DNA from: Sipunculus nudus
Taxonomy: Eukaryota; Annelida; Sipuncula; Golfingiida; Sipunculidae
NCBI GenBank assembly: GCA_026874595.1
Contig: CM049309.1
Coordinates: 48,468,079 to 48,532,078, forward strand
Direction: 5' to 3'
DNA: 64,000 nucleotides
Made by a program: the position numbers and the translations under genes. Below are positions 2,379 to 42,364 of this stretch, piece after piece. The notes beneath the pieces are model-generated. The model saw nothing but the letters and a program-made list of their open reading frames with translations, had not been told where the DNA came from and did not search any database. How positions within the stretch are numbered: position 1 is the stretch's first letter; each line of letters starts with the position of its first letter.

Positions 2379-3078
2379 GATTTCTTTTGCGTATACACTA
2401 ATATGAATTCGATAAAACGTCTTAGTGACTGTTTATAGGAAGATGAGAGAACAGGACGCGGGGTTTGTTTACAGTTTCCAGGGGCGACGTCTTGAATGTT
2501 ATGATAGATAAACTTACTTTTCCGTCGCTGAAATATCACTCAAACATCCCCACAACACAGTGTAGGGGAATGCATGGAATATCACAGTTTGTCTTCTAAA
2601 ACATGTGCTTGTAAAATCCGTTTAAGAGCGTAAAATCCATTAAAATCCAAGTAAAAATGTGAGCACTGAGAAGTTCGTTCTCGTACGCCCGAGTCTGCGC
2701 AATGACAAATTATGTTAACGCAATAACTTGAAAAGAATTTGACGCACAGTCACTAAACTTGCAACATAAATACACCTCATAAAGGGCTAGGTCCGGTTTA
2801 ATTACGGATGACCTTGACACATTTTTCAAGTACAAGTGTTAAAGTACACTTTAATATTATAAGTAATGTTTATTTAAATACCCCAAGTATGTTCCGATAA
2901 ATAACTCCGGAGTATTTTCAGTTTAAAGGTTGGTCAGACCAGAGATACCCGGCTATAATGTGCTCGTGACCGATACCCAACATTTAATGCCAAAAAATAC
3001 AGTTTTTAAGTGGAAAGAATGTACTTATTACTGCCTGAAATATCTCTATTAAGGTACCTTACCACACGCCTTTTTCAG
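2379..3078. other. CR1 5' leader and AT-rich intergenic DNA
   Basis: No coding segment is seen. The part next to 2378 is presumably the 5' untranslated end of the CR1-like element. The rest, up to the lectin exon, looks like intergenic or intronic DNA. No upstream lectin exon could be found here. Confidence 0.4.
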
Positions 3079-3332
3079 AAGACGAGGTGGAGGGCGCTTG
3101 GTGGAACGGGTTATGGATTGGTGGTAACGATCGTGACGACGAGGGAATATGGAGATGGGCAGCATCTGGTGATAGAATGTTTTATAATGACTGGCTTCCT
3201 AATCAACCAGACAATAGTTATGAAGAGGATTGCGCCAACATGTTTGGGAAAGGTCAATGGATGTGGAATGACATCAAATGTGACTGGAAAATGCGGGGAG
3301 CAATCTGTGAGAGGATTGGCAAGTTCATGTAG
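3079..3332 (+). CDS. C-type lectin-like protein, terminal exon
   Basis: A splice acceptor (cctttttcag, ending at 3078) precedes a frame encoding the C-terminal two-thirds of a C-type lectin domain. It has the WIGGNDRDDEGIWRW core, then YNDWLPNQPDN, EEDC, WMWNDIKC and AICER, and stops at 3330-3332. QPD is the galactose-type calcium-site motif and WND is the second calcium-ligand motif. The last three domain cysteines are present and the first would be in the missing upstream exon. The product would be a secreted or membrane carbohydrate-binding protein of the kind common in mollusc immunity. Upstream exons were not found; the CR1 element occupies 1-2450, so the exon may be an orphan or belong to a gene extending left of the window. 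Confidence 0.75.
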
Positions 3333-7430: not shown

Positions 7431-9410
7431 TGAACACGTGGATATAATTATGTCTGGGGCCGGGCGTGTTACAATACCGAATCTTTTGACCTTTGGAACA
7501 CATGTGAACCTTAGTGTCTGGGGGCTTGCGTGTTAGAATCCTGAATCCCTGACATTTGGAACACGTGGTTATCTTAGTGTCTGGGGGCTTGCGTGTAAGA
7601 ATCCTGAATTCTTGTCATTTGGAACACGTGGTTGTCTTAGTGTCTGGGGGCTTGCGTGTAAGAATCCTGAATCCCTGACATTTCGAACACATGGTTGTCT
7701 AAGTGTCTTGGGGCTTGCGTGTAAGAATCCTGAATCCCTGAAATTAGGAACACGTGGTTACCTAGTGTCTGAGGGCGTGCTTGTAAGATTACTGAATCCC
7801 TGACTTATGGAACAAGTGGTTGTCTTAGTGTCTGAGGGCGTGCTTGTGAGAATCCTGAATCCCTGAAATTAGGAACACGTGGTTGTCTTAGTGTCTGGGG
7901 GCTTGCGTGTTTGAATCCTGAATCCCTGACATTTGGAACACATGGTTACCTTAGTGTCTGAGGGCGTGCTTGTAAGAATCCTGATTCCTGACATTTGGAA
8001 CACGTGGTTGTCTTAATGTCTCGGGGCTTGCGTGTTAGAATCCTGAATCTCTGACATTTGGAACACATGGTTACCTAGTGTCTGAGGGCGTGCTTGTAAG
8101 ACTCCTGAATCCCTGACGTATGGAACACGAGGTTGTCTTAGTGTCTGAGGGCGTGCTTGTAAGAATCCTGAATCCCTGATATTGGAACACGTGGTTGTCT
8201 TAATGTCTGGGGGCTTGCGTGTTAGAATTCTGAATCCCTGACATTTGGAACACATGGTTATCTTAGTGTCAGAGGGCTTGCGTGTAAGAACCCTGAATTC
8301 CTGACATTTGGAAGTCGTGATTGTCTTAATGTCTGGGAGCTTGCGTGTTAGAATGTTGAATCCCTGACATTTGTAACACATGGTTAACTTAGTGTCTGAG
8401 GGCGTGCTTGTAAGAATCCTGAATTCCTGACATTTGGAACACGTGGTTGTCTTAATGTCTGGGGGCTTGCGTGTTAGAATCCTGAAACCTTAACATTTGG
8501 ACCACGTGGTAACCTAGTGTCTGAGGGCGTGCTTGTAAGAATCCTGAATCCCTGACATTTCGAACACGTGGTTGTCTTAGTGTCTGAGGGCGTGCTTGTA
8601 AGAATCCTGAATCCCTGAAATTTGGAACACGTGGTTGTCTTAGTGTCTGGGGGCTTGCCTGTTGGAATCATGAATCCCTGACATTTGGAACACATGGTTA
8701 CCTTAGTGTCTGAGGGCGTGCTTGTAAGAATCCTGAATCCCTGACATTTGTAACACGTGGTTGTCTTAGTGTCTTGGGGCTTGCGTGTAAGAATCCTGAA
8801 GTCCTGACATTTGGAACACGTGGTTGTCTTAGTGTCTGGGGGCTTGCGTGTTAGAATCCTGAATCCCTGACATTAGGAGCACATGGTTACCTTAGTGTCT
8901 GAGGGCGTGTTTGAAAGAATCCTGAATCCCGGACATATGGAACACGTGGTTGTCTTAGTGTCTGAGGGCGTTCTTGTAAGAATACTGAATCCCTGAAATT
9001 AGGAACACGTGGATATCTTAGTGTCTGAGAACATGCTTGTAATATTCCTGAATCCCATATGTCTGAGGGCATGCTTGTAAGAATCCTGCATCCCTTACAT
9101 ATGGAACACGTGGTTATCTTAGTGTCTGAGAGCGAGCTTGTAAGAATCCTGGATCCCTGACATTTGAAACACGTGGTTATCATAGGGTCTGAGGGCGTGC
9201 TTGTAAGAATCCTGAATCCCTGACATTTGGAACACGATGATATATTGATGTCTTGGGTTGTGTGAATACGTATTCAAAATCATTGGCAGTGTGAACACAT
9301 GGATATCATAGATTCTGTAGCAATGCGTGTAAGAGGTCCGAACAACTGACATTTTGAACACGTGGACAGTACGGTGTCTGGGGACGTGCGTCATTGACAG
9401 TTTGAACGTT
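7431..9410 (+). repeat. 63-bp minisatellite, about 31 units
   Basis: The unit reads approximately GAACACGTGGTTGTCTTAGT, then GTCTGRGGGCKTGCKTGTAA, then GAATCCTGAATCCCTGACAT and TTG. Unit starts recur every 63 bp from about 7434 to 9359. Units differ mainly at GGGCTTGCGTG versus AGGGCGTGCTTG and at CACGTGG versus CACATGG. Because 63 is a multiple of three, open frames persist on both strands. On the minus strand they give 21-residue Cys-x2-Cys-bearing repeats, but indels break the frame repeatedly, so these are not taken as genes. Outer units are the most diverged. Confidence 0.9.
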
Positions 9411-15585: not shown

Positions 15586-17283
15586 AATCTATATTGAAAA
15601 AGCAAGTAATAACGACACTTATAAAGCATTCTACAAGAGTGTTGATTTTAATGTTTTCTTCATGCAACATTTCCCAATACAGCCGTATATATCGGTCTAT
15701 TTCCCAAATGATGCGAACATTTTAAAAAATATTTTCCTCATCAAAATTAAATCATGTTATGTTATTCCATCTGAAATACCGTCACTTGTAATTTTTCCCT
15801 TCATAAAAAGATATACTAACCAGATAATTAAAATGAAATATGTTTGACCATTTGTATTCTTCAAGATATTAGGTCCAGGTCAAAACTAAATATCATTTGT
15901 AATTGTTATTGAAACCAAAAGGTAAATTATTCAATCCCCAATATAAGAGATCTAGCGCAAACAGGGAAGAAAAAAGAATTCGAGGTGAATGAAGAAAGCC
16001 AAATGATACAGAAAAAAAAACAAAATTAATCATCAAACTATATATACCTCGTCATAAATTCTCGAGGGAGAACAACAGAAATGTTCCTTTAAAATTAAAG
16101 AAATGTGAATATAATTTTCTTTTCTTAGATTATTCTCTTTTAAGGTGTATTAAATAAAAAATCATACATAATCCTCAGGTAGACTGTGGCTGGCTGCTCC
16201 GGCATAATCATCGTAGTCAGGCTGATCAATGTCTTTGTCCTCCTTGTTACAAAAACCATCACGGAATTTTCTCCAGAGGTCCTGACACTTTCCTCCATCA
16301 CTGCTCAGTGTGTCGTTTTGAATACAAAATTAACCATTACAATTTTAACGACGTCTATGTTACGAAGCGCATATTCGAAAAAAAAATAAAGATGTTGAGC
16401 AACAGAGATACAAATATTTGAATTTGCAAGATTTTTAGTCGTCCGTATTTTTGTTACTTAATTTTTTTTGGTACGGTGTTGGTTGTAAAATGTCTAATGT
16501 GGAATTTTAATTGTTTAACCCTATTCTTGAGTTCTAGGATGTAATGTATGTCATGGACAGGGGGGTACCTTTTCGTAAGATTATCTGCGTTGTCTGTTTT
16601 GTCAATGATACATAACATTAAACTACATGCAAAATTATAGTTGAAAATATTAAGTCTGTATAAAATATCGCTTCACTGACCAGTAACAAAATTTCATTTT
16701 TATTCTACATATGACTTACTGGGTAGCAAGGGTTATCTATGACTTCATCTGCCAAACACTCTCTGATTTTGATGCATGTCATGTAAGTCCTTTTTAGATG
16801 ATAAATTATTATCGCTAACTCCAATACAATTTTAGTAGTAGTAAAACCAAAATTTATAAGAACTGATGATTTGAATTATTCGATCTTTAACATGAAGTGT
16901 ATATGACCTAGCAAGTAGATAATTTGCCTTCTCGAGGATTATATAAATATATAAATATTTTTATTCAAAGATTAGTTTATTTTAAATATGTACACATTTG
17001 AATGATTATAAACTTAATCATAGGATATATCCAACCACTTGTTTATCTTGGTTTCGAAGCTCGAACGCTGATATGCCTGCCCCTTTTCCTTGCTTAGGTT
17101 GCCTCTATTAAAAATGATGAAACATTTATATATGCTAAGTTCTGGAATAATGTCTTACCTTTCAAGGAACCCGCATCGCCCTAAAAACGGACTTGTAAAG
17201 GGCCCATTATCACAGTCTGGTTGGGCCTTGACAACACATACAAGAAGCAGGATGACAAGGGTGACTGTCCAAGCTGTCTTCAT
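12790..17283 (-). CDS. ADP-ribosyl cyclase family protein (gene 1), eight exons, ~300 aa
   Basis: Exons (minus): 17159-17283, 16168-16300, 14726-14798, 14415-14545, 14201-14274, 13828-13920, 13477-13569, 12790-12970; total 903 nt. All junctions have GT/AG with matching phases. Exon 1 gives a signal peptide (MKTAWTVTLVILLLVCVV), then PFLGRC. Later motifs are GKCQDLWRKF, VTFYSG, ERAFWRRVS, VRILLDG, RDELPSL (catalytic Glu), RERCGQGSL and YQCIDN. The protein ends in a hydrophobic segment (AAIWSMIISIATEIVL) suggesting a GPI anchor or membrane tether. The family converts NAD to cyclic ADP-ribose, a calcium messenger. Ten cysteines are present. The first active-site Trp is replaced by Tyr (FYSG) and TLEDTL is replaced by SISKTM, so activity may be altered. 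The family assignment is strong; the reaction is inferred. Confidence 0.9.
14141..14196. repeat. (TA)n next to an exon 5 donor
   Basis: The TA tract lies a few bases inside the intron after gene 1 exon 5 (donor GTAAGTAT, reading downward from 14200). Confidence 0.85.
14799..16167 (-). other. intron 2 of cyclase gene 1
   Basis: Contains TA/TG microsatellites (about 15306-15330, 15411-15430, 15534-15583) and a short dispersed word (GTATCAATACAGGGGGAT at about 15052). No other exon-like segment is seen. Confidence 0.5.
16720..16762 (-). CDS. possible optional exon of cyclase gene 1
   Basis: A 43-base open segment (ECLADEVIDNPCYP) has a good acceptor (AAAATCAG) and a strong donor (CCCA|GTAAGTCAT). 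It lies in intron 1 between the signal-peptide exon and the next exon. It starts in phase with exon 1 but ends out of phase with exon 2. Inclusion would shift the frame to an immediate TGA unless another exon is used. It could be a poison or alternative exon, or chance. Confidence 0.3.
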
Positions 17284-33218: not shown

Positions 33219-33311
33219 GGCACCTTCATGTAAAATAAACGTAACCTCTGATCATGCGATTATATGTACATGTATATATTTATAGTTTTAACGCCAATTT
33301 ACCAGCAAAGA

Positions 33312-36251
33312 ATGGAAAATCACAGGACAGTCTTCTTATTTCTACTTCCCATTTACACCGGACAAAACTGTGATCCCACCAGCCTCAGCAGCATCTTCAC
33401 ATTCCAATGCGACAACGTGAACAAGTGAGACTTACTGACAGTTTATGCGAGAATGTTTATTATGAAATATGGTATATCCCAATGCGACAACGTGAACAAG
33501 TGAGACTTACTGACAGTTTATGCGAGAATGTTTATTATGAAATATGGTATATCCCAATGCGACAACGTGAACAAGTGAGACTTACTGACAGTTTATGCGA
33601 GAATGTTTATTATGAAATATGGTATATCCCAATGCGACAATGTGAACAAGTGAGACTTACTGACAGTTTATGCGAGAATGTTTATTATGAAATATGGTAT
33701 ATCCCAATGCGACAACGTGAACAAGTGAGACTTACTGACAGTTTATGCGAGAATGTTTATTATGAAATATGGTATATCCCAATGCGACAATGTGAACAAG
33801 TGAGACTTACTGACAGTTTATGCGAGAATGTTTATTATGAAATATGGTATATCCCAATGCGACAATGTGAACAAGTGAGACTTACTGACAGTTTATGCGT
33901 GAATGTTTATTATGAAATATGGTATATCCCAATGCGACAATGTGAACAATTGAGACTTACTGACAGTTTATGCGAGAATGTTTATTATGAAATATGGTAT
34001 ATCCCAATGCGACAACGTGAACAAGTGAGACTTACTGACAGTTTATGCGAGAATGTTTATTATGAAATATGGTATATCCCAATGCGACAACGTGAACAAG
34101 TGAGACTTACTGACAGTTTATGCGAGAATGTTTATTATGAAATATGGTATATCCCAATGCGACAACGTGAACAAGTGAGACTTACTGACAGTTTATGCGA
34201 GAATGTTTATTATGAAATATGGTATATCCCAATGCGACAACGTGAACAAGTGAGACTTACTGACAGTTTATGCGAGAATGTTTATTATGAAATATGGTAT
34301 ATCCCAATGCGACAACGTGAACAAGTGAGACTTACTGACAGTTTATGTGAGAATGTTTATTATGAAATATGGTATATCCCAATGCGACAACGTGAACAAG
34401 TGAGACTTACTGACAGTTTATGCGAGAATGTTTATTATGAAATATGGTATATCCCAATGCGACAACGTGAACAAGTGAGACTTACTGACAGTTTATGCGA
34501 GAATGTTTATTATGAAATATGGTATATCCCAATGCGACAACGTGAACAAGTAAGACTTACTGACAGTTTATGCGAGAATGTTTATTATGAAATATGGTAT
34601 ATCCCAATGCGACAACGTGAACAAGTGAGACTTACTGACAGTTTATGCGAGAATGTTTATTATGAAATATGGTATATCCCAATGCGACAACGTGAACAAG
34701 TGAGACTTACTGACAGTTTATGCGAGAATGTTTATTATGAAATATGGTATATCCCAATGCGACAACGTGAACAAGTGAGACTTACTGACAGTTTATGCGA
34801 GAATGTTTATTATGAAATATGGTATATCCCAATGCGACAATGTGAACAAGTGAGATTTACTGACAGTTTATGCGAGAATGTTTATTATGAAATATGGTAT
34901 ATCCCAATGCGACAATGTGAACAAGTGAGATTTACTGACAGTTTATGCGAGAATGTTTATTATCAAATATGGTATATCCCAATGCGACAATGTGAACAAG
35001 TGAGATTTACTGACAGTTTGCGCGTGAATGTTTATTATCAAACATAGTACATCCGAATGCGACAGTGTGAACAAGTGAGACTTACAGTTTGTGCGTGAAT
35101 GCTTATTATCAAATATAGCAACAGTACTAAGCTTATTAAAACTTATTTACATATTATTTTAACCTTGTTCGATGGTACTTAGTGGTTATAAAACGTAACT
35201 GACAGGAGCGTCTATACAGGGGGATGTGGTCAAGGGAGAATTCAGAGAATAATATTTGTTTGGAAATGAATTAAAGCGTCCCAGCTCAAATCACTCATTT
35301 TATTTTACACCTTTTGGCAGCAAATATCGTTATGGAAAGGACTGTCATGCCTTGTGGGAACTCTTTCGAAATGGATTTTACTACAAGAAAGACCACGAGA
35401 TATCTAAATCCAGTTATGATGAGTATACCAAAGAAGGGCGCCACAGCCTAACCAAAGACGAGGTATGATCAGTTATAAAAATGAAAAGGTCACACATTCA
35501 CGATCTGGACCATGGTCTGTCCCGACTAATCGTAGCCACGAAAGTCGTGTGTGGTCGTGTGAGAAGTTCCACCATATCAACTCCTACGACTGTACTATAC
35601 GATACTGCTGAGATAAAGCAAGGTGGCTCCAGGACCTGTCACGACTTAAGGCAGAAATTTTTAATACAATGTGTAACTGAAAGGCACAAATTAGAACGAT
35701 TCCCCCACCTTCACGGGCCGAAGACACACGACCCTCTGCAATAAGCGACGATTCCTATATGAATAATCACGATGCATTAAACACGTAGGATGTCGTAAAA
35801 AATCGTAGCAAACCGTGATATATCGTAGTAACACGTACCACAACATCAGAGATGTCCGACGACTGTCCCGGATTAACCACGATATATGCCGACTAGGCAC
35901 ATGTTAACGTCTGATCAAGTTCATTTTAACGTTTGTCTCCTGATGAATGACTATCGACTTAGGATGGAGCTACGATTGGAAAATATTCGTATGGGCTCCA
36001 CAACAATTTCAACCTTTCCAAAATAGTCATAACCCTCGCCCGACCTATCATGGCCCATCCCGACCTCCACGATTCATAACGACTGCGCCACGACCTTGGT
36101 CCCGGCAATCACGATTTCAAACCGTAGCTATATCGTAGTTCAAATCGTGAAGATGTGCCATTTTTCTCTTTTTTTTTTAATTTGTTCATTTTAATTTGTC
36201 ATGATTTTTTCCTCGTTTTGAATTTTTTGTTAAAATATTGAAGTTCTATAC

Positions 36252-36329
<78 letters not shown>

Positions 36330-38533
36330 TCGTATTCGGATTTCTGTGGATTTGACTAAAATACTGACCAGTTCACCACAATTTGATATCCTTATGCTTT
36401 ACACGCAAGGACACTGATGGTGCCCGTATTATTGTATATTTTGTGATATCGTTCGCTTTCCCACAGGAATTTCAGGATACCAGTATACAAATGCATGTGC
36501 GTTTGAAAATGTCGCATTTGTATGTGAATGCAAGTCCATCGGGTATTCGTAATTGCCAATATACGACTACTGAAACATTCTGACATTAACTGATGTTCAC
36601 CCTGTTATAAATATATATCAATCAGGTTTACCTCTTTTTTTACCTATCTAATTAGAGTTAACAATTTGCATTTAAGTTATATGAATTATGTACATTTGCA
36701 TTTATATGTAGAGTTCCATTTGTCTCCAATCTGGGATATTTTTTATCTGAACTCTAACATTTTTTTTCCTGTGTGGAAGATTACTTTTAAAGGTTACATT
36801 ACCACTTTTTTGTACTCCTAAACAAGGTCACATTATATTCTGGATTAAAGGAAAATGGCATCAAAGACGATCTCCTTTCAATATCAAGGACAATGCTTGG
36901 TAAGTTGGAGTTGAGTCCCAGTAAGTGATAAATAACTGTTAATAAATGTGTCATGTGACAATGTGGATATATGTAACAGGAATATACACGCTGTATTGGC
37001 TTAATATATTCCATGGCTTTAGCATTTTTTATGGTTATCAGACTGACAAATTTCCTTTACTTTGATGTTCTTTTATCATTTATGAAACGTTGTGTAATTT
37101 TTTTTATAACTGATGATTTCATTTTATTGGAAATTTAATTCCACCAGGTTAAACTAATAGGTAAACTAATAGTAAACATAATAATTTTTAAATCTGCCGA
37201 TAGGTGGCCCTGTTAACGGGGTTCATTGGATTGCTGATCCAGTGGTGGGGTACAGGTTACCGAACGACAGTGGAAGTAATACCGAGACGATGTTTTGGCG
37301 CCGAGTCTCAGAAGAGGTAAATTTAGCGTATAATTTTATTTACGATTAATTATTTTATGTGATGACAAGATTCTATTTAGAACCATGTTTATATTTGTAT
37401 TCATAATTTTTCATAAATGTATACAATGGGCTTCGTTTCAGGAGGGGGGGGGGAGCGAGGGATGTAAACAAAGTATCCTTTGTAACCCTCATTTTATAGG
37501 AGAATTAAGCGCATAAATTTGTACATAGCGATTTCAAGACTGAATTTCCGTCTTTCGCTTTTTGGTTTTCATCCTATTAACCTGTTAGAAATATTTTGTT
37601 TCCAACAGTATGCTGCTCTGGCTGAAGGAGAAGTAAGGGTTCTCTTGGATGGAACCAGAGAGAATGCTTTTAAAGAAGACACGTAAGAATTACTACATGT
37701 AATTAACATCCCGGACTTTTTTATTACAATATGTTATCCGTGCAGACATAACATGAAAGAGGTCCTTCATGCCTGGACACATCCATTTTTTATGTGATCA
37801 GTTTCAGGATTAGCTGATGATGCACAGCTTAAATTCTATCGTCATGACAACATGTTGTTTATGTAGTTTTATTTTCGGTTTCATTTATATGGCAGTACGA
37901 CAAAGCGTGCAGTGCATTGTTAATTTCAAGTAAGGACCTTTTGTTTAAATATGGAAGGTAATTTTACAGAAGTAAAAAAGGACCGTTTGTGCGACAAGCA
38001 CGGACAGTCCTACCGGAATTAATTATTAGAAGTCTTCACGATCTTATCTGAAAACGGGTTCCCTTGATATTGCAAGTTGGTAGTTTTGTTCATGAAGATA
38101 TATATTACTTTAACATAAACATGATTTTGTATCGCTTGTCAAGCGTCAAATCAGGAAAAAGACGCTTCAGTCTATTTATCTTTACAAAATAATAGACTAA
38201 CGCGGGTCAGTAATTCAACCTGCTGCTTTAAGACGCCTGACGCGCGCTGGCTGAAATAACTTAAGACAGATTTTCCCTCCCCTGCATTCGAATTCAGTAT
38301 TAAACTGCACGCTATAATTGATTTGACTATAATTATTGATGGGAATCTGGTTAGAAAACGTGCAACAAAGCAACACAAATATATAATATCATTGTGAAGA
38401 AAGATTGGTCTCAAACAGATACATATTTGTATACATTTTATCCAATGCTGATCATCAAGATTACTAGTTTTACAACGATTAACAAAATATACAACATGTA
38501 CTTGGTTAATACCATACAATCTGATGAATTGTC

Positions 38534-38567
<34 letters not shown>

Positions 38568-41500
38568 AGCCATGAAATATGCAATGAATATGTAAAAAAT
38601 ATTTCAATGTAAACCTTACTTATTAAATTTAATCTACTGAGATTTATTTCAGCATCTTGGGAATAGAAGAAATCCCTAACTTAAATAGCGCAAATGTGAA
38701 CAAAGTGACGGTATATGTAGTTACTTCTGACAGTGAAAAAAGGTATGTTTAATAATTAGTAGTAACAGCACTGAATGGTGCGGTAGAAGTACCAGGGTAT
38801 ATGTTATTTGATGTGTTTGTCCAAAAGACTTTAATGTGTCCGAACGCTATGTCTATTTTTTTTTCTTTCTCTCATTCTGTCATGGCAGCCCGGGATTTAC
38901 CATTTTCTCTTTTTTACTCAAGATTTTTCATTTGTTATTAATTTAGCTGATTGAAAATCATCTGAGCTATAGCGAAGGGTTTTTGTCTGGTGGTCCGGTT
39001 GCCCAGTCGTCTCTTAACAGGTCACTAATCGTAACGATTAGACGTTGGAATTACACCCTAGGGAAATCTTAAATTCTTAAAATCTTAAAAAGGGAAATCT
39101 AAGGTGACCTAAAGCCTGTGAGCTATGGGTCAAAAACATGTTTTTTTTGTAATCTGATTGCCAGATTTATGTCACAGTTTAAAGTTGCTGAACATCTATT
39201 TTTGCATTAGATCATAAAATTAAACTTACTTGTGCTAAATTTACACATTTAAGTACTATCAGCATGCAGAGTTTTATCAGAATCGGATACGTTTCATATA
39301 TTCGAATACATAAGCTAGGTTATGTCTGTTACCCCATGTGTCAGGAACAGCTGGCGCTGCGACCAATGAACATAACAAATCTATTGAGCCTGTTACAGGT
39401 TTATCAGTGTACAGTGCAGGTGGCGCCACTTATATTGACTCAGTTTCTGTTTGATAAAACATTCTTTTCCACTACTTTTACCTCAAGCAGGAAAACAGAG
39501 TAACAATTTAACTTTTATGTTAAGGTTAATTATAGTATGTAGGATTAATGAGTATTAGTTCATCTTAATTATTTTCAAAATGCCGTTTTGTTAATTGCAG
39601 TATTTGATTTCTTTGTTTGTTTAGAATATGTTATTCGTTACAAAATAGTGTTAAATTGTGAATTGTATTCTTGGGTCTCCTGTTAAGAACACCTATCAGT
39701 ACAGATATCAGTGTGATACTTAGCAGGGCACATATAGTAACTATTAGGTCAGGGTTATTCAAACTTAATATCCAGCAACCAGGTACAAGTAAATTCAAGC
39801 TGTAACCCCTAACTTGGTCACTTTAACTTATATGATTTATCTTTCAGTAGTGTGTCCTTTTCAGCAAAGCGTCATGGCCCATGGCCACTTTTTTTCATAC
39901 TCTGAATTTTCGTTTTTCTCTTTACCAATCAGATTTGCGATTTGCTCTTTTCTTTACAGGAATACGCTTTTGTTCTTTCCTACTCCAAAAGTATATCATT
40001 TTCTATGTTACAATTCTGTTTATGCTTTCGACAAAAAAAATATTTTTTGTCGTGTCCTACTTTCACTAGTTTACATTTTTAATCAATACATCTTTAACCT
40101 TGAAGGAGGGAAATAACTGGTGATCTACAATGCTTATTCCAGGCGTTTTGTAAAATTTATTGATTAAGATATCCGTACATAATAAAATAAATTCATCCAT
40201 ATAATTTAAGAGGATCAGAAGACTCCTTGTTGTGTTGTATACAAGGAAAATAAAATAACCGTTTTGTATCGTTTTTGTCATATCATAACATTACAAATAA
40301 GCGATTTGTGCTATTTTTCAAAGCACGTCTATTATATATTGTGTAACTAATATTTATGTTCTAATATTATTTAATACATTTTTGTCTGGTAAGGGTTACC
40401 CTCCTCGAACAGCGTTTGTACACTGCAGTTGTATCAGATCCCGTTCCAAAAGCTATTTCGAAGTCTCAACAACAGTGCTGGCACAAGGTCAAGAATCAGA
40501 CCAACGAGAGCGGGGTGTCACGATTTTAGACGTTGAGTTGCATGCACAGTCCTATACTCCGCTGTCATTGGTCTGATCAGAATCATTTGCACTGCTCCCA
40601 CTCTGGTGGTGAGAGCCGGAGAATCATTTTTTAAAGATATTTTGGTGGAGGTAACCGCTCCCTATTTTTTAATGCGTGTACATATGCACAATTCAATTTC
40701 TTTATCGGACTACGTGACAGGGGCTTGCAGGCGATAATTCTGTCGTCAACCAGCTTCGGTGTATCACTCCTGCAGGTCCTAGGTGTGTATTATTCCAATT
40801 GCTGGGTCTTAACACCGAGGAACCTGTGAAAAGGTGCACTCGTTTGTGAGTGAAACACGTCTGTTGGGCACAGTCTCCCCGTTACCCTGAAGTATTTCAC
40901 CTCCTTGACTGGGATTCGAACTCACGATCTCCCGGCTTTAAGCCCTCCTTGAGCCACAATCCCGAAGAATCATGCTATATAGAGCAGCGGTTAAAACGAA
41001 GGCGATCTGGAACAATTGCAGTGTATACCTGCTGCGTAAGGGTGAAGGTGAGAATTAATCATTTGCTTTTAATTTCTGCGGATCGAAAATGTTCGTGCAT
41101 TTCTAATTCTATGTTTCCAACCTAATCTATCTTGAACAGACGAGACTCGTGTGGAGGGGAATCGTTGATTAGACTGAGATATCTGATAGAAAAGAAGGGC
41201 ATCATATACTGCTGTATTGACAACCAGGCGTAAGTACATGATGATAGTTATCTCGAAATGTTTATGACGATCAAAGCTCAATGGCATGCATGATTTGTTA
41301 TAATTTACTTTCTTTCTAATCTCTTGCTATGGTAGGAGGACAGTCCAATCAATATGTGTGCATGGTAGAAACGACCAGTACACGGTCTGAGATAGTCCGA
41401 GCTGGCCAACTGGCCCAGTCTACTCGACAAGAAGGTAGTTTTCTTATTGGAAAGGTTTGAATGTGAACAGCAACATCTTTTGGCCATTAAGGACTGCATG

Positions 41501-42364
41501 GTATTAGGCCATTGTATGTTTTTGATAAAGGAGCTTTGTATTGAGGGAAAATTTGTAATGAGAAGTACACCCTCCCCCGACATAAGGACACCCGCTCCAA
41601 AATCTCGCCCTGCGCCCACTTAAGACAAACAGGACAAAATCTAACACTTAGGATAGTTTTCTTTAATCCTACCCTATTTTAGAAATAATTTCTCAGTTTT
41701 CAGTACCAATTATTACATTTGATTTACATATTCATAACCTGGGCTTACATATAGACAATAAAATTAGACAATTGAAAAATGTAATATCATAAATGTTCTA
41801 AATATAAGATGCATAACTGAAATATTATTGAAGAGGTTTCACGAAAATATAAACTGTGAAATAATGTTCTCGAAATTTAGACATTTTTTTTTATTTCCCT
41901 CAAAGGTGAGGAGGACAAACAGCACTTTGTCCACCACAATTAAAAAAGTGGGGATGATGTTTACCCAAGAAACAAGGCCCATGACTTCACTGTTGTTTGT
42001 AATGAACAATATAAAATACTCATAAAAACTAATTTGACCATTAACAAGAGTTAATTTACATTTGTAGAAAAAGAGAGAGGATCAGCTATCCAGGAAAATC
42101 ACATTTTCGCATTTTAGAAATTACCTAACATGGCAAAACACATATATATATTTAATTTTCCCATTTTTAACCTCTAGTATATATATTTTTTACAGTGAAG
42201 CTCGGAGAGTGTTTTGTCCCCCGAACAGGAAGCGGGCCACTGGATGTTGCGATTGTTGGACACGAGTTCCGGACATTGTCGTCAACAAGGCGCCGAAGAT
42301 GTCTGCAGCGCGATGGCTGGCACTGATAGCTTCCGTCTTAAGCTTCAGAATCATCTGTGCTTAA
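33312..42364 (+). CDS. ADP-ribosyl cyclase family protein (gene 2), eight exons, ~287 aa
   Basis: Exons: 33312-33424, 35321-35462, 36827-36899, 37204-37316, 37609-37682, 38653-38742, 41140-41229, 42196-42364; total 864 nt, all with GT/AG and phases identical to gene 1. Exon 1 encodes a short signal peptide (MENHRTVFLFLLPIYTG) and ends at donor AACAA|GTGAGA. Later motifs are KDCHALWELF, VTLYSG, ETMFWRRVS, LAEGEVRVLLDG, IEEIPNL (catalytic Glu), DSCGGESL and CCIDN. The C-terminus is WLALIASVLSF-like, a probable GPI signal. Spacing from ALW to V-x-F/L-W/Y-SG (35 residues) equals my recollection of Aplysia cyclase. As in gene 1, TLEDTL is absent (ISRTML) and the first active-site Trp is Tyr. Two cysteines present in gene 1 (GFC, REC) are both lost. 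Intron 1 holds a 75-bp array; intron 2 holds a transposon. Confidence 0.9.
33404..35120 (+). repeat. 75-bp tandem array, ~23 units, overlapping exon 1 end and intron 1
   Basis: Each unit runs from CCAATGCGACAACGTGAACA through AGTGAGACTTACTGACAG and GAATGTTTATTATGAAATAT to GGTATATC. The first ~20 bases of unit 1 are the last codons and splice donor of gene 2 exon 1, so the exon-intron junction itself was amplified. Most units keep the donor (AA|GTGAGA). One has GTAAGA (34551 region) and one has lost GT (33948 region). The last units (from about 34830) are the most diverged. The array reads open in one frame for 546 codons because 75 is divisible by three. Confidence 0.95.
35485..36165. mobile_element. 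~680-bp terminal-inverted-repeat element in intron 2 of gene 2
   Basis: The left end GTCACACATTCACGATCTGG and the right end CAAATCGTGAAGATGTGCC are inverted repeats of about 20 bp with few mismatches. The interior is unusually dense in CACGA/TCGTA words. No transposase is readable. Confidence 0.55.
36256..36328. repeat. (TA)n in intron 2 of gene 2
   Basis: A pure TA tract of about 70 bp. Confidence 0.9.
38537..38566. repeat. (ATT)n microsatellite in intron 5 of gene 2
   Basis: About ten ATT units, shortly before the exon 6 acceptor. Confidence 0.85.
38945..39890 (+). mobile_element. second pearl/Helentron-like copy, in intron 6 of gene 2
   Basis: It begins AGCTGATTGAAAATCATCTG and ends AAAGCGTCATGGCCCATGGC, the same termini as the 4639-6815 element. 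Its tandem core is largely lost. It contains a GGTGGCGCCAC palindrome near 39419, typical of the related ~280-bp repeats. Confidence 0.6.
40493..40584. mobile_element. short MITE, copy 1, in intron 6 of gene 2
   Basis: The ends are GAATCAGACCAACGAGAGCG and GTCATTGGTCTGATCAGAATC-like, an inverted repeat of roughly 20 bp. A second copy lies at 45223-45341. Confidence 0.55.
40830..41000 (-). repeat. tRNA-derived SINE in intron 6 of gene 2
   Basis: The minus strand has TTGTGGCTCAAGGAGGGCTT (A-box region) and GTGAGTTCGAATCCC (perfect B box), then an unrelated body containing CACCTAGGACCTGCAGG further down. There is no full tRNA fold. Confidence 0.6.

Follow-up and report, generated by a model that had tools for sequence, protein, structure and literature searches.

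Tandem arrays that grow out of an exon's own splice junction have already been described in human genes. In ABCA7, the first two bases of each 25-bp unit of the intron-18 VNTR constitute a splice donor, the first of these donors being that of exon 18 itself (PMC5954066). According to the available text of the same report, retention of one unit, which adds 25 bp and a premature stop, amounts in the measured tissues to about 2%, whatever the length of the array, and longer VNTRs go along with more skipping of exon 19 and less expression; the VNTR is located in a C-rich region, its smallest allele counts 12 units and its alleles extend to 9711 bp (PMC5954066). In the human CBS gene, the 31-bp VNTR c.1444_1467+7(16_21) is built of 24 exonic and 7 intronic bases per unit, present in 16 to 21 copies (PMC2630376). 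By this name, each CBS unit spans the exon/intron boundary, thereby repeating the exon end together with its donor. The exon concerned is exon 13, and a 2001 study by Lievers is said, by its title, to associate the VNTR with reduced CBS activity. Finally, tandem duplication of AGGT segments is described as a route of intron gain, with a potato case in which the duplication runs across a splice boundary (PMC4974935). Perlucin splice variants (PMC4019660), ELFN1-AS1 (PMC3953637) and an earthworm metallothionein (PMC12783039) were also considered as precedents and set aside, what the available text of each describes not being the same thing. A literature search on cyclase genes in bivalves found nothing.

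The array reported here lies in a window of 64,000 nucleotides of Sipunculus nudus, which is the whole stretch of DNA that was analysed. Its host gene (hereafter A) is modelled with eight coding exons separated by GT-AG introns, which join into an open frame of 287 codons. All on the forward strand, exon 1 occupies 33312-33424, with a signal-peptide-like start and a phase 2 end at FTFQCDNVN, and is followed by exon 2 at 35321-35462, which is covered by both the gene model and the Pfam search with exons 1-2, and by exons 3 to 8 at 36827-36899, 37204-37316, 37609-37682, 38653-38742, 41140-41229 and 42196-42364, the last of which includes the stop codon (42362-42364). The start codon is ambiguous, further in-frame ATGs at 33264 and 33270 adding 16 or 14 codons, respectively. 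The product matches the ADP-ribosyl cyclase family (PF02267) with an E value of 6.9e-37, over residues 24-244 and profile positions 3-237 of 241, and it is matched by PDB chains of CD38 and of the Aplysia-type cyclase with E values of about 5e-19. Exon 1 alone has no Pfam match, and exons 1 and 2 together reach 26.6 bits versus a curated cut-off of 25, over residues 24-84; since this match starts at residue 24, it runs through the exon-1 tail that is encoded by the array unit. Judged from its sequence, the gene encodes an intact-looking CD38-like ADP-ribosyl cyclase, an enzyme that processes NAD, and is a clear member of the PF02267 family. In addition, its N-terminus looks like a signal peptide, and the hydrophobic C-terminus encoded by exon 8 looks like a GPI-anchor signal.

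Intron 1 (33425-35320, 1896 bp) consists for about 89% of the array, followed by 204 bp of unique sequence up to exon 2. Tandem Repeats Finder (TRF) delimits the array at 33404-35116, with a period of 75, 22.9 copies and 98% matches, and the unit table gives 23 unit starts (33404, 33479 and so on up to 35054), always spaced by 75 bp. In a full unit, 21 nt from the end of exon 1 (33404-33424 in unit 1) are joined to 54 nt from the start of intron 1; unit 23 is degenerate, carrying a short deletion. A preliminary description of this DNA had placed a 75-bp unit with the last 20 or so coding bases of exon 1 and its donor in 23 copies at the exon-1 junction, inside intron 1 of a cyclase gene, and it is upheld on each of these points by TRF, the unit table, the gene model and the PF02267 match. 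Within units 1-22, 13 are identical to the consensus, among them units 1-3, and the mean pairwise difference amounts to 2.4%, or to 1.0% for units 1-19; divergence is strongest in units 20-23, at the end of the array distal to the exon. A 23-fold array at 98% identity is no chance product. When the genome (1,426,538,692 bases) was searched with the unit, 23 matches were obtained, all 23 within the array, which is therefore a single locus as far as a search that skipped very common words and limited scoring to the best candidates can tell, this evidence being strong rather than absolute.

The unit thus includes the donor of the host exon, the array is continuous with the predicted exon, and it is found at one locus and not dispersed, so that it can reasonably be described as a junction VNTR of the ABCA7/CBS type, an arrangement that has precedents. 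As described for ABCA7, the array starts at the exon's own donor, brings a donor GT with each unit, and would turn the retention of one unit into a premature stop, making the mRNA a target of nonsense-mediated decay (NMD). The ABCA7 unit is however 25 bp long and begins at the GT, leaving the later donors without exon context, and its effects were measured, whereas the cyclase array has 23 copies of 75 bp, each with 21 nt of exon, adjoins the first coding exon and is known from the sequence of one assembly. The CBS VNTR differs in that it is situated at a later exon and has a much shorter intronic part. The first coding exon, the longer unit, the 21 nt of exon context per decoy and the non-human gene therefore set the cyclase array apart from both. 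With AGGT-mediated intron gain, it shares tandem duplication, which in the potato case also crosses a splice boundary, but the cyclase array implies no new intron, being devoid of AGGT and of good acceptors; intron gain by AGGT duplication was accordingly rejected for lack of any duplicated AGGT in the array. With respect to the CD38/Aplysia ADP-ribosyl cyclase family, the array is a feature of the host paralog's own among the four genes with a placed exon 1. It places a non-human case beside the human junction VNTRs of ABCA7 and CBS, suggesting that junction arrays form wherever a minisatellite expands over a splice junction, and it is a natural test case instead of a new kind of system.

As to the donors themselves, the 9-mer CAAGTGAGA is present in 21 of the 23 units, CAAGTAAGA in unit 16 only (GTAAGA) and CAATTGAGA in unit 8 only (TT instead of GT). 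GT is thus kept in 22 of 23 units, which leaves the real donor and 21 possible decoys. The donor of unit 1 (GTGAGA, 33425-33430) is presumed to be functional, given the frame into exon 2 and its donor score, and is followed, in 75-bp steps from 33500 to 35080, by 22 later donor positions, 21 of them with GT. The frame into exon 2 is kept by the donor at 33425 and by 0 of the 22 later positions. Scripted splicing from the latter, a count that takes in unit 8 in spite of its lost GT, puts a TGA directly after codon 38 in 22 cases out of 22. Seven exon junctions lie downstream of this stop and, by the usual rule, a stop upstream of exon junctions makes an mRNA an NMD target; mRNAs spliced from the later donors would consequently be such targets. 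The earlier claims that nearly every unit has an intact donor, that use of a later one brings a stop after about 38 codons and that some 20 decoys are on offer hold in the sequence, the last with 21 GT-bearing later copies that would generate the stop if used. GTAAGA had further been presented as an improved donor in one unit; it does occur, in unit 16, but the improvement is doubtful, its score being 6.9 versus 7.5 for the GTGAGA form on a matrix of approximate human donor frequencies, good for ranking only. On this same approximate matrix, the unit-1 donor ranks third among the seven donors of the host gene, and of the 3781 GTs in the window, 91 equal or exceed the score of the array donor. 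Outside the array, donors of such approximate score occur at about 1.1 per kb on the same strand, compared with 21 in the 1.7 kb of the array, and 350 of 5000 random 75-bp stretches carry one on one strand.

The reading that we favour, with a probability of roughly two in three, is that the array is a junction-born, single-locus minisatellite and mostly a tolerated passenger, with rare use of its decoys and an array length that may lower expression modestly. In a single ADP-ribosyl cyclase paralog, the junction between exon 1 and intron 1 would have been duplicated in tandem and have expanded into the minisatellite, whose units would be kept uniform by unequal exchange or slippage. Productive mRNA would be possible only from the first array donor, at 33425, which is probably the one used, and the 21 GT-bearing later copies would act as intronic decoys, with an expected low rate of use. 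Each such use would lead to the stop after codon 38 and to an mRNA open to NMD, by which minor leakage from the later donors would probably be removed. If 175,000 donors are assumed in 1.43 Gb, chance alone would place about 1% of 75-bp founders over a donor, so that junction arrays should exist in such genomes without having a function. Nevertheless, certain points speak against a passenger. Since each decoy has 21 nt of exon context and the same 9-mer is found in 20 of the 22 later units, competition from these decoys may be stronger than in ABCA7. Among identical competing donors, the intron-proximal one is often favoured, and if this preference applied here, leakage would be large. Besides, the fall in ABCA7 expression with repeat length is a point against the passenger reading.

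The first alternative, which we regard as unlikely, is that the decoys take a large and copy-number-dependent share of splicing and that the length of the array thereby sets cyclase output through NMD. It draws on the GT present in 22 of 23 units, with an identical 9-mer in 21 of them, on the same early stop being reached whichever of the 22 later donor positions is spliced, and on the lower expression reported with longer VNTRs in ABCA7 (PMC5954066). However, in the available text of that report, one-unit retention in ABCA7 stays at about 2% and is not length-dependent, and NMD is, according to its authors, unaffected by length (PMC5954066). Furthermore, no sign of selection keeping the donors was detected: across units 1-22, unit 23 being left out, 3 of 27 exon and donor positions are variable versus 9 of 48 others (Fisher p 0.52), a weak test with little power in view of the few events. 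A more specific version, to which we give slightly less credence again, treats array length as a heritable rheostat, where longer arrays would bring more decoys with exon context, perhaps in part hidden by pairing between units, and the productive share would fall stepwise. Should the decoys compete, the array would offer a natural set of 5' splice sites that hardly differ from one another, each preceded by 21 nt of exon and set at a constant 75-nt interval; as the length of array retained tells which unit was used, positional rules of donor choice could then be read directly from RNA.

A further alternative is a self-masking array. Each unit contains the near-palindrome AGTGAG-A-CTTACT, and 6+6 bp of pairing across 75 nt are predicted between adjacent units, whereby donors would pair with the anti-donor of a neighbour and the decoys, perhaps even the true donor, would be hidden. 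We consider this self-masking improbable. In its favour, the predicted probability that the 9-mer is unpaired is 0.0009 in the tiled array compared with a median of 0.015 for units with shuffled flanks, 3 of 100 of which are as low, and under global folding the donor hexamer is unpaired with a mean probability of 0.35 with one copy and of 0.17-0.24 with two to five copies. Nonetheless, under local folding, an equally low value (0.0009) is predicted for the donor of exon 2 and for that of exon 3, which adjoin no array, and the first donor goes from 0.0021 with one copy to only 0.0010 with 23; energy-only folding of a long pre-mRNA is, moreover, unreliable.

The remaining alternatives concern the origin and the nature of the unit, and here the paralogs are informative. 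A genome search with the host protein yielded further cyclase genes. Paralog B is encoded on the minus strand of the window, C and D lie on the same contig no more than about 100 kb off, and E is separated from the host locus by 40 Mb; a family search gave others on another contig. The loci are C4:48480000-48583000, with four genes in about 100 kb, C4:88484000-88488200, with the fifth, and C11:33581000-33623100, with more distant ones. By sequence comparison, this gene set is a lineage expansion of CD38-like genes. Paralog B runs from 17283 to 12817 on the minus strand, with exon 1 at about 17283-17159, a donor AAG/GTAAGA, exon 2 near 16300 and later exons down to about 12817, and its intron 1, which is under 1 kb and lies in the window, contains no TRF array. 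Compared with FTFQCDNVN-AA/GTGAGA in the host gene, exon 1 is predicted to end at FLGRCGFLE-AG/GTAAGA in B, at FGDRCRSLN-AA/GTAACA in C, whose donor is weak (2.9 on the approximate matrix), and at FDSKCGELIK-AA/GTAAGG in E. Exon 1 is in phase 2 in all of A, B, C and E, and the conserved Cys is followed by four residues in A, B and C and by five in E. The last six exonic bases, GAACAA, are common to the host gene and C, and the Cys of QCDNVN is shared with B and E in an alignment of the three sequences.

Exon 1 of B had first been met by tblastn. For C and E, part of this agreement is built in, their exon 1 having come from scans that required phase 2 and a late Cys; for this reason, a control scan was repeated over three phases and both strands. 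With the F..C motif, A, B, C and E each returned a single candidate, on the sense strand and in phase 2, and the five regions gave no antisense candidate; the only other candidate, in D and in phase 1, was set aside as exon 1 of that gene, being in our judgement unlike a cyclase start. A looser scan, asking only for a Cys near the end, gave more candidates, in other phases and, in C and E, also antisense. For D, which is the closest paralog, no exon 1 was located in the about 21.7 kb upstream of exon 2. The array unit was absent from the fetched paralog loci (140 kb) beyond one weak 28-bp match in L042 (E 0.036), and the array is private to the host paralog among the four genes with a placed exon 1. 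Since the exon ends of the paralogs agree without an array, the exonic 21 nt are best seen as an old exon, the repeat having been made from the junction and not the reverse; these 21 nt are thus, as far as sequence comparison goes, very probably older than the array, which would have grown from the junction in the host gene.

That a dispersed satellite or mobile repeat landed at the junction and supplied the exon end is hence barely credible: the high identity of the copies is found in many satellites, but all 23 matches of the genome search, which scored only its best candidates, are the array itself, the position, phase and Cys of the exon end agree with those of the exons predicted in the paralogs, and the Pfam cyclase match of exons 1-2, from residue 24, spans the unit-encoded tail. 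Recursive splicing or removal of mini-introns within the array is likewise very improbable. It had been proposed from a sequence in each unit that resembles a branch point plus acceptor, and TTACTGACAG does occur 22 times in the array, being absent from unit 23, but the recursive removal itself finds no footing: the array is without any AGGT, the CTGAC that resembles a branch point immediately abuts its AG, which puts the branch A 3 nt away from the final G, and the four AGs per unit are preceded by 33-56% pyrimidine versus 61-72% at the seven acceptors of the host gene. Ratchet sites were also looked for and rejected, the combination of an AG/GT junction and a pyrimidine tract not being present in the array. 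Finally, a coding array, put forward by one forward frame that is open for 557 aa (33374-35047) and listed as an ORF with a 25-aa repeat, is scarcely tenable: of 4000 random 75-mers with a similar composition, 1036 have at least one endless forward frame, 8 of the 12 variants seen in units 1-22 alter a residue or create a stop in the 557-aa frame, and this frame gives only a sub-cut-off Pfam match.

Some minor observations were made along the way. By inspection, the start of host exon 2 at 35321 seems to lie 9-12 nt upstream of where exon 2 begins in C and D, a gain of three to four residues; the exon 2 acceptor reads CATACAG before ATAT or ATAC in C and D and ACCAG/ATAT in E, and the corresponding AG is missing in the host gene. 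The window also contains a C-type lectin exon at 3039-3332 (PF00059, E 7.7e-8) and, on the minus strand at 490-2432, a pair of long ORFs that could possibly, at a guess, be part of a retroelement; one of them matches a GDSL lipase below the Pfam cut-off. A survey of tandem arrays over 194 kb, a biased sample made of the window and 13 fetched cyclase-locus stretches, from which arrays below 2.5 copies were dropped, counted three distinct arrays with five or more copies and a period of 25 or more. A second minisatellite of the window, at 7510-9236, has a 63-bp unit, which TRF lists in rows of 24.6 copies and of 2.9 copies with 83-87% matches; many of its units contain GTAAGA, and its best consensus donor scores only 5.3 on the approximate matrix. 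On contig C11, a large 57-bp minisatellite (L018:2224-6532, TRF rows of 70 and 46 copies) lies some 14-18 kb away from an exon of a distant cyclase.
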